A DNA stretch of 64,000 nt, taken from the NCBI GenBank assembly GCA_028276475.1, contig JAPYWH010000003.1, forward strand, positions 22,304 through 86,303, in the 5' to 3' direction. Within the stretch, counting starts at the first letter, position 1. The number at the start of each line of letters is the position of its first letter. Shown here in pieces: positions 52,871-56,210 of the stretch. The notes beneath the pieces are model-generated. The model was not told where the DNA came from and did not search any database. It saw only the letters and a list, made by a program, of their open reading frames with translations. Both the position numbers and the translations under genes were made by a program. Source of the stretch: Thermocrinis sp. GTDB lineage: Bacteria; Aquificota; Aquificia; Aquificales; Aquificaceae.

Positions 52871-52890
52871 TAAAAGGGGGCTATGCCCCC
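52871..52890 (-). terminator. Intrinsic terminator / possible attenuator before rplU
   Basis: On the minus strand GGGGGC-ATA-GCCCCC (52890-52876) is a perfect 6-bp GC stem with a 3-nt loop followed by TTTTA. It ends the poly-Gln lipoprotein transcript, or attenuates read-through into rplU-rpmA, whose start lies about 18 nt downstream. CCTCC and GGAGG also flank it and are complementary, the latter touching the rplU ribosome-binding region. Confidence 0.65.
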
Positions 52891-52904: not shown

Positions 52905-53174
52905 TTACTTCTTTTCGCCAGCGGGTTGCTGCTGCTGTTGAGCAGGTTGTTGCTGTTGTTGTTGCTCGCCAGCAGGTTGTTGTTGCTGTTGCTGCTGTTG
53001 TTGTTCACCAGCAGGTTGTTGCTGTTGCTGTTGAGCAGGTTGCTGTTGTTGTTGAGCAGGTTGTTGCTGTTCAGCAGGCTTTTGCTCTCCTGCAGGCTTT
53101 TCCGCAGGCTTTTGCTGGCAAGAAACTGCCAATAGAGCTATGCTTGCCACTCCAAGTAGCAATAACTTTCTCAT
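52905..53174 (-). CDS. Poly-glutamine repeat lipoprotein
   Basis: Protein of 89 aa with a signal peptide and lipobox (LLGVASIALLAVSC). The mature part is almost only Gln, Pro, Ala, Gly and Glu: runs of 3-9 Gln split by PA, PAGE or PAEK units. It should be lipid-anchored and disordered. I know no named family. AGGAGG lies 9 nt before the ATG, and a near-consensus promoter and an intrinsic terminator flank it, so it is probably well expressed. The mixed CAG/CAA repeat leaves other frames open, producing the shadow ORFs on the plus strand. Confidence 0.82.
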   Translation of the reverse strand: MRKLLLLGVASIALLAVSCQQKPAEKPAGEQKPAEQQQPAQQQQQPAQQQQQQPAGEQQQQQQQQQPAGEQQQQQQPAQQQQQPAGEKK

Positions 53175-53205
53175 TCCATTTACCTCCTAATGAGTTTTGT
53201 TCTTA

Positions 53206-53235
53206 ATTATATAGCAATATTCAAAGGGCTGTCAA
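53206..53235 (-). promoter_or_regulatory. Strong promoter of the poly-Gln lipoprotein
   Basis: TTGACA (53235-53230), an 18-nt spacer and TATAAT (53211-53206) on the minus strand; TATATA at 16 nt spacing overlaps. This is the best sigma-70 consensus in the window, with a leader of about 25 nt and an AGGAGG site. Confidence 0.7.
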
Positions 53236-54363: not shown

Positions 54364-55785
54364 ATGCCCGCAAGAATTCGCTATGAGGATAGAAACCCTG
54401 AGCCTCTGCTGGCGCCCCAGGAGAGGGTAAAGACCTTCAGGGAGTACGCCCTTGGGTATTCGGTCTCCCTTGCCTTGGACGAGGCAAACAGATGTCTGCT
54501 ATGCAAGGATGCAGACCAAAGGTGCATAAAGGCTTGTCCCGCTGGTATTGATATACCGGGATTTATAAAAAAGCTCTCGGAAGGGGACCTCTTTGGTGCC
54601 TACAGGGTTATCGTGCAGTCTAATCCCTTTCCCTCTGTGTGTGGTAGGGTGTGCCCCCAAGAGAGGCAGTGTGAGGGCTCTTGCATACTGCATTACGACA
54701 CGGTAAGAAACAGAAAAAACAAAGGCTTGTCTGTTAGCATAGGAGCCCTGGAGAAGTTTGTGGGGGACTTTGTGCGTATATCGGGCGTTCAGTTGGAGCA
54801 AAGGGCAGAGTCCACCGGAAAGCGGGTTGCCATAGTAGGTGCAGGTCCCAGTGGTTTAGCCTGTGCATACGAACTTTCTATACTTGGGCACAGCGTGGAT
54901 GTTTATGAAGCCCTTCCAAAGGCTGGGGGTGTGATGACCTATGGCATACCTACCGCCAGGTTGGACAGGAGTATATTAGATTGGGAAGTGGAAAGGCTTA
55001 AAAGACTTGGGGTGCGTTTCTTTTTTGGATGGGTTGTGGGCAGGACAGTTAAGTTGGAGGAGCTTTTGGAAACATACGATGCGGTGTTCTTGGGAGTTGG
55101 TGCGGGAAGGGGAAGCCTTGGCATAAAGGGAGACCACCTAAAGGGCGTCTATTCTGCCATTGAGGTCTTAACCCGGGTGGGTCTGTTAAAGGCAAACGAG
55201 TTTCCTCACTCTGCCACGCCGGTGGAACTTGGTAAACGCACTGCCATAATAGGTGGAGGCTTTACTGCTGTGGATTGTGCCATAACCGCCCTAAGGCTTG
55301 GGGTAGAGACTCACGTGCTATACAGAAGAACGCGAGAAACATCCTCCGCAAGGGATGAAGAGTGGGACCACATAGCCCAAGAAGGTGCCATTTTACATTG
55401 GCTTACTCAACCGGTGGAAATTTTAGGTGATGAAGAAGGAAAGGTAGTAGGTGTCAAGTGTATAAAGATGCGACTTGGAGAACCAGACGAGAGCGGAAGA
55501 CCCAAACCAGAACCCATTCCCGGTTCCGAACACATAATAGAATGCGATTCAGTGATCTTTGCCATAGGACAAAAGGCGAACCCAGTAGCCTACGGAGAGA
55601 TCAAGGGCTTGGAGCTAACTCCTTGGGGCACCGTCAAGGTAGATGAAGAGTTTAGAACCAGCATAGAAGGTCTTTTTGCAGGTGGGGATGTGGTGAATGG
55701 GGGAGATACAGTGGTAAGGGCGATAGCCCACGGCAGAAAAGCTGCAAAATCTATACACAGGTATCTTATGGAGGTGAAGAGATGA
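54364..55785 (+). CDS. gltD: GltD-like FAD/FeS oxidoreductase (glutamate synthase small subunit family)
   Basis: Flavoprotein of 473 aa. The N-terminal FeS region has CLLCKDADQRCIKACPAGID and CGRVCPQERQCEGSC. It is followed by the FAD site VAIVGAGPSGLACAYEL near 155, the NADPH site TAIIGGGFTAVDCAITA near 295, and C-terminal EGLFAGGDVVNGGDTVVRAI. It transfers electrons from NADPH to a partner; glutamate synthase (GltB) is usual, but NfnB, sulfide dehydrogenase or PreT-type roles share this fold. GltB is not in the window. The next gene overlaps it by 4 nt. Confidence 0.87.
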   Translation: MPARIRYEDRNPEPLLAPQERVKTFREYALGYSVSLALDEANRCLLCKDADQRCIKACPAGIDIPGFIKKLSEGDLFGAYRVIVQSNPFPSVCGRVCPQERQCEGSCILHYDTVRNRKNKGLSVSIGALEKFVGDFVRISGVQLEQRAESTGKRVAIVGAGPSGLACAYELSILGHSVDVYEALPKAGGVMTYGIPTARLDRSILDWEVERLKRLGVRFFFGWVVGRTVKLEELLETYDAVFLGVGAGRGSLGIKGDHLKGVYSAIEVLTRVGLLKANEFPHSATPVELGKRTAIIGGGFTAVDCAITALRLGVETHVLYRRTRETSSARDEEWDHIAQEGAILHWLTQPVEILGDEEGKVVGVKCIKMRLGEPDESGRPKPEPIPGSEHIIECDSVIFAIGQKANPVAYGEIKGLELTPWGTVKVDEEFRTSIEGLFAGGDVVNGGDTVVRAIAHGRKAAKSIHRYLMEVKR

Positions 55786-56210
55786 AAAAGGTAGCCATAA
55801 TTCTTGCGGTGGTTTTGGCAGGCTTTTTTGTGTTCAGGGCTTGCGGAACAAGCCCAGAGGAAGCCTCAGAGGGCACAGTAAAGGAGTTCATCTCTGCAAT
55901 AAAGGACGGTGATGGCAAAGAAGCGGTAAAGCTACTCTATCCACCCTTCAGAGATGCCCTCATGCAGGATGTAAAAGTGCCTCTGCAACTTACAGAAATG
56001 AAACCCTCCGAGATGCTTGCCTGTGTTTTAAGTTCCATGGGAGAAAACATTAAGAAGATTAAAGTCTTGGATGTCAAAGCCATAGACGATAAGCACGGAG
56101 AGGTTATAGTCAAGGTAATAGACAAAAACGGAACGGAAAAGATATTGGCTTTTATCACCATAAAGGACGAGAAAAAGTGGAAGATCGCCAGTATATCCAA
56201 TGTTAAATGA
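55782..56210 (+). CDS. Putative lipoprotein, DUF4878/NTF2-like
   Basis: Protein of 142 aa. An N-terminal hydrophobic signal ends in FRACGTSPEE, a plausible lipobox (VFRAC is atypical). The mature domain is a small alpha+beta fold resembling DUF4878 (GTVKEFISAIKDGDGKEAVK and WKIASISNVK at the end). It is probably anchored to a membrane, with unknown function. It is coupled by 4-nt overlaps to gltD upstream and waaF downstream, though no functional link is obvious. Confidence 0.75.
   Translation: MKKVAIILAVVLAGFFVFRACGTSPEEASEGTVKEFISAIKDGDGKEAVKLLYPPFRDALMQDVKVPLQLTEMKPSEMLACVLSSMGENIKKIKVLDVKAIDDKHGEVIVKVIDKNGTEKILAFITIKDEKKWKIASISNVK

Follow-up and report, generated by a model that had tools for sequence, protein, structure and literature searches.

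Analysis of a 64-kb stretch of Thermocrinis DNA (hereafter, the window) revealed that the Gln-rich open reading frame at 52905..53174 on the minus strand is, judging from its sequence and its orthologs, a real lipoprotein gene. Its 89-residue product appears to correspond to the membrane tether of a c552-type cytochrome encoded in the same genome, minus the haem domain, and will be referred to as the headless tether. As this product is probably abundant, being preceded by a promoter of top rank, the role that we consider most likely, although with somewhat less than even confidence, is that of a disordered periplasmic brush or spacer. The cytochrome carrying the same tether had been missed by an earlier sequence-only reading of this DNA, and no description of the protein or of its pairing with a cytochrome was found in the literature searched.

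Residues 1 to 19 display the features by which bacterial lipoproteins are recognized in sequence, namely a signal peptide, a lipobox and an invariant Cys. The signal peptide (residues 1-18, MRKLLLLGVASIALLAVS; 53121..53174, minus strand) is kept in the orthologs, and the next codon (53118..53120, minus strand) specifies the putative lipid anchor Cys19, which is invariant in the orthologs read. The lipobox had initially been described as clear; the motif AVSC is indeed present with its Cys, but an Ala at position -3 is acceptable rather than the strongest, canonical form, and the Hydrogenobacter orthologs read LASC. Since both LspA and LolA are encoded in the genome, anchoring in the periplasm to either membrane would be the default. 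From Cys19 onwards, the mature protein contains 71 residues, close to the 70 or so first estimated, of which 37 (52%) are Gln distributed in successive runs of 2, 1, 3, 5, 6, 9, 6 and 5. Taking the window rather than the proteome as reference, its 57 ORFs with a length of 150 aa or more have an average Gln share of 2.6% and a maximum of 5.4%. The Gln/Pro/Ala/Glu-rich tether itself (70 codons; 52908..53117, minus strand) is built from Qn-PA, PAGE and AQP units and ends with PAGEKK. Ala and Pro are the sole hydrophobic residues of the mature protein, Asp is absent, and neither Asn nor Gln-Gly pairs, which are the faster deamidation sites, occur in the protein. In the AlphaFold model, the only helix spans residues 3-17 and the chain beyond it is not folded, with a pLDDT of 51-57 that rests on 11 low-complexity sequences and is weak evidence for disorder. 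No Pfam family match was found for the protein, which has a single Cys and no His and lacks the CXXCH haem motif of class I cytochromes c. Elsewhere in the window (55782-56210, plus strand), another small protein with a hydrophobic N-terminus matches DUF4878 (PF12870).

The lipoprotein gene is followed by rplU, which we placed in 101 genomes of the order and whose upstream DNA was read for 45 of them. In 24 of these 45, the gene lies directly upstream of rplU, with a gap of 38-62 nt; orthologs thus occupy the same site in 23 further Aquificaceae genomes. Five genus-level groups carry it there (Thermocrinis, Hydrogenobacter, g6, g7 and g9), and it was not found upstream of rplU in the other genera examined among the 45 genomes. 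The relatives' genomes include those that we take to be T. ruber, T. albus, H. thermophilus, Hydrogenobaculum and Aquifex. A tree of L21 and L27 left the grouping of the gene-bearing genera in a single clade without resolution. Additional weak matches in G037, G039, G046, G051 and G016 were discarded as apparent shadow frames or unrelated proteins.

One ortholog (G035) is interrupted by a contig start; the 23 complete ones all retain an intact frame ending at TAA, despite many in-frame length changes, and the loss of frame in relatives that the sequence-only reading had named as an argument against the gene is not seen. The same reading expected a length-variable CAG/CAA tract. The mature length does vary between species (47-71 aa), but a simple triplet-slippage tract does not fit the DNA, as CAA and CAG are interspersed in the window gene with a longest pure run of three codons. 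Over the signal peptide and the first tether residues, pN/pS amounts to 0.07, 0.10 and 0.22 in three genera, and at the sequence level this end of the gene is under purifying selection. Together with the 23 further orthologs, these ratios rule out a chance ORF or a shadow frame. Within the tether, only CQQKPAE and the C-terminal PAGE(Q)KK are conserved motifs, the latter being retained in most orthologs, while the Gln/Pro/Ala/Glu middle drifts freely. The C-terminal Lys is found in 22 of 24 orthologs, the exceptions being G036 and G038.

Abundance finds good, if indirect, support in the promoter. As first noticed from the sequence, the gene is preceded by the best promoter of the window and by a ribosome-binding site, AGGAGGT (53182..53188, minus strand). 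The promoter, TTGACA-18-TATAAT (53206..53235, minus strand), had been called near-consensus; it matches the consensus exactly and is the sole 12/12 match in the 64 kb. Only nine such exact sites were found in the 1.30-Mb genome, with none for reversed-pattern controls. Near-consensus promoters precede 22 of 23 orthologs, scoring at least 10.8/12 in 21 of them and 9.8 in one Hydrogenobacter; the remaining one, G057 (g9), is without a good -35 box. AGGAGGT or GGAGGT stands before all 23. According to our own reading of the translations downstream, the other exact sites precede two EF-Tu genes, groES-groEL, and genes for rubrerythrin, an Fe-S HdrC/GlpC-like protein, a cytochrome c peroxidase-like protein and an sfsA-like protein, one site lying near a contig end. 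Exact consensus in the company of EF-Tu, GroES-GroEL and rubrerythrin makes high expression of the lipoprotein likely, in line with the abundance first proposed from the promoter and ribosome site.

The second match to the lipoprotein in its own genome is G000:C48 (L061:2456-3031, minus strand), which encodes a signal peptide and a tether of the same kind and, after them, a cytochrome c domain (PF00034, E 1.2e-11), whose closest structure is cytochrome c-552 (PDB 1ayg, E 1.4e-38). This gene, unlinked to the headless one, adjoins a murJ-like gene and a sulfide:quinone-reductase-like gene, the sub-family name of the latter being our inference. In four Thermocrinis genomes, 16 to 17 of the first 18 tether residues are the same in the headless and cytochrome proteins, a level equalled by none of 2000 shuffles. 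Across 22 genomes, the Gln content and QQQ density of the two tethers covary (rho 0.65 and 0.71, kinship ignored), and comparisons of own versus other tethers within genera are only weakly significant (p 0.02, 0.12 and 0.02). In T. albus (G051; L010/L160), the headless gene and the cytochrome tether share 53 nt of exact identity, a length reached by none of 1000 synonymous shuffles, and no cross-genome DNA match better than 25 nt is seen for either gene. This identity indicates a recent exchange of tether DNA between the two unlinked loci in that species. Genome-wide concerted evolution of the two tethers at the DNA level was tested and rejected, since only T. albus is clear and the own-genome match is no better than chance in most genomes, that of the window included. 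The tethered cytochrome is also found in genera where the headless gene was not, with tethers there rich in Lys and Glu; on this distribution, the headless gene is most simply seen as a later duplicate of the cytochrome tether. Separately, all five Hydrogenobaculum genomes (L208-L212, about 1411-1842) encode a small Ser/Asn/Pro-rich lipoprotein at a locus other than rplU, flanked in four of the five by NYN-like and PIN-like genes, and also an anchored cytochrome with a Ser-rich tether, which makes an analogous pair.

We propose that the lipoprotein would be exported, cleaved before Cys19 and lipid-anchored, leaving a hydrophilic, presumably disordered chain of 70 residues. Abundant chains of this type may then form a polymer brush or spacer in the periplasm, whose bulk and hydration would determine distances close to the membrane and delimit the zone available for movement of the tethered cytochrome. 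Next in rank, although unlikely, comes a role in organising the cytochromes themselves: the headless copy might compete as a regulatory partner or decoy for a membrane zone or a partner, tuning the number of tethered cytochromes that gain access to the respiratory complexes. The common tether, its covarying composition and the single DNA exchange would fit such a function, as would the stronger promoter of the headless gene (those of the cytochrome gene are weaker) and the sulfide:quinone-reductase-like neighbor of the cytochrome gene in the window genome. Against it, the tether conserves no motif besides the two at its ends and otherwise drifts freely in sequence, and the two genes are not linked.

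The genomic context calls for another explanation to be weighed. Between the lipoprotein gene and rplU (L21; 52554..52859, minus strand; PF00829, E 6.9e-32), which starts 45 nt downstream and is followed by rpmA (L27; 52296..52550, minus strand; PF01016, E 8.7e-39), a GC-rich hairpin is found (GGGGGCATAGCCCCC; 52876..52890, minus strand). It had been taken for a terminator; the hairpin holds, but it is followed by only four T's and received no call in a terminator scan; it may be a partial terminator, an attenuator or an mRNA stabiliser. A hairpin exists in 24 of 24 orthologous gaps, with a T tract that is weak in many of them and a stem that in G035, G052 and G057 differs in sequence along both arms. 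The folding z of these gaps averages -1.26 versus 0.09 for comparable upstream stretches without the gene, which are mostly unstructured. A known L21 leader RNA was discarded, the sole Rfam match (E 0.79) being far under the cut-off and due to chance. As no promoter was found between the hairpin and rplU and no other rplU promoter was seen, expression of rplU-rpmA probably depends on read-through from the lipoprotein promoter. The gene is thus probably not the self-contained unit initially described but the first cistron before rplU-rpmA.

From this arrangement, it is conceivable, yet rather improbable, that the gene is a copy of the tether that was taken into the rplU-rpmA unit and has been retained chiefly for the control that its promoter, translation and hairpin exert on the output of L21 and L27. 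The fixed spot upstream of rplU, the conserved hairpin and the fact that no other rplU promoter was seen all agree with such a leader cistron, and the strength of the promoter might chiefly benefit the ribosomal genes. Against this, rplU promoters are weaker in relatives without the lipoprotein gene, an indication that the lipoprotein gene, and not rplU, brought in the strong promoter. Moreover, a pure leader need not maintain a lipobox signal peptide under selection or a conserved C-terminus, no credible leader match exists in Rfam, and in Hydrogenobaculum the analogous small lipoprotein is maintained elsewhere in the genome.

Two further roles can be envisaged for an abundant lipoprotein outside the brush or spacer that we favor. 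Thermocrinis grows as filaments, and a lipoprotein with hydrophilic repeats and a strong promoter might be a surface-exposed adhesin or a protein of the streamer matrix, as is implied where the sequence-only reading speaks of a surface protein. We regard this as quite improbable: no surface-export signal was identified, the chain is only 70 residues long, and several genera carry the gene without evidence of a common attached lifestyle. The least probable role is that of a Braun-type lipoprotein, its C-terminal Lys joined to peptidoglycan so as to tie the outer membrane to the wall; despite the small size, the apparent abundance, the widespread terminal Lys and a LolA that probably allows lipoprotein transport to the outer membrane, it is disfavoured because YkuD (PF03734) was not detected in seven Thermocrinis (window genome included), five Hydrogenobacter and the g9 genome (13/13) by a search that does find it in E. 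coli and in 42 of 64 genomes from the family, although a non-YkuD enzyme might attach the protein, and because the two orthologs devoid of the terminal Lys do have YkuD. Most other Aquificaceae have a YkuD domain.

Three known systems offer points of comparison for the proposed brush or spacer. With Braun lipoprotein Lpp, the protein shares a small size, a promoter of the strongest class and a C-terminal Lys, but it lacks hydrophobic coiled-coil heptads, a predicted fold, a Pfam match and a YkuD partner in the genus. The membrane-anchored c-type cytochromes of Aquificales (tethered c552/c555 type), represented in the window genome by G000:C48, have the same lipoprotein signal and tether; in contrast, the headless protein has neither haem domain nor CXXCH, and the anchored-cytochrome tether of Aquifex (L200) is Lys/Glu-rich, unlike that of the window.

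The closest analogue in design is found in Neisseria, where Lip (H.8), best known as an antigen, and Laz (lipid-modified azurin) also associate a repeat-only lipoprotein with an electron-carrier lipoprotein bearing the same N-terminal low-complexity tether. To our knowledge, this layout is known only from Neisseria. Here too, the tether recurs on a redox lipoprotein encoded by the same genome, the cytochrome c paralog, but homology is not supported; the repeats are Qn with PA/PAGE instead of AAEAP pentapeptides, and the carrier is a c552-type cytochrome instead of a cupredoxin. Lip and Laz are themselves reported to have little in common beyond their AAEAP-repeat N-terminal domains (PMC9239064), and Lip is described as abundantly expressed (PMC12829745). 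As the surface exposure of Laz varies between Neisseria species (PMC6277709), a surface location should not be assumed for the Thermocrinis protein. Speculatively, and with low confidence, Thermocrinis and Hydrogenobacter, being without Lpp-type cross-linking, might use the headless chain, among their most abundant proteins, to build a non-covalent brush in the envelope and at the same time to organise the pool of tethered cytochrome c, headless and headed genes exchanging tether DNA, in a design evolved independently of Lip/Laz. If so, a polyglutamine-rich chain would be a major envelope component in near-boiling-spring bacteria whose proteins otherwise have rare Gln, the function of a layout studied mostly as an antigen would become testable in a harmless autotroph, and the Lip/Laz layout would stand as a recurrent design of respiratory envelopes.
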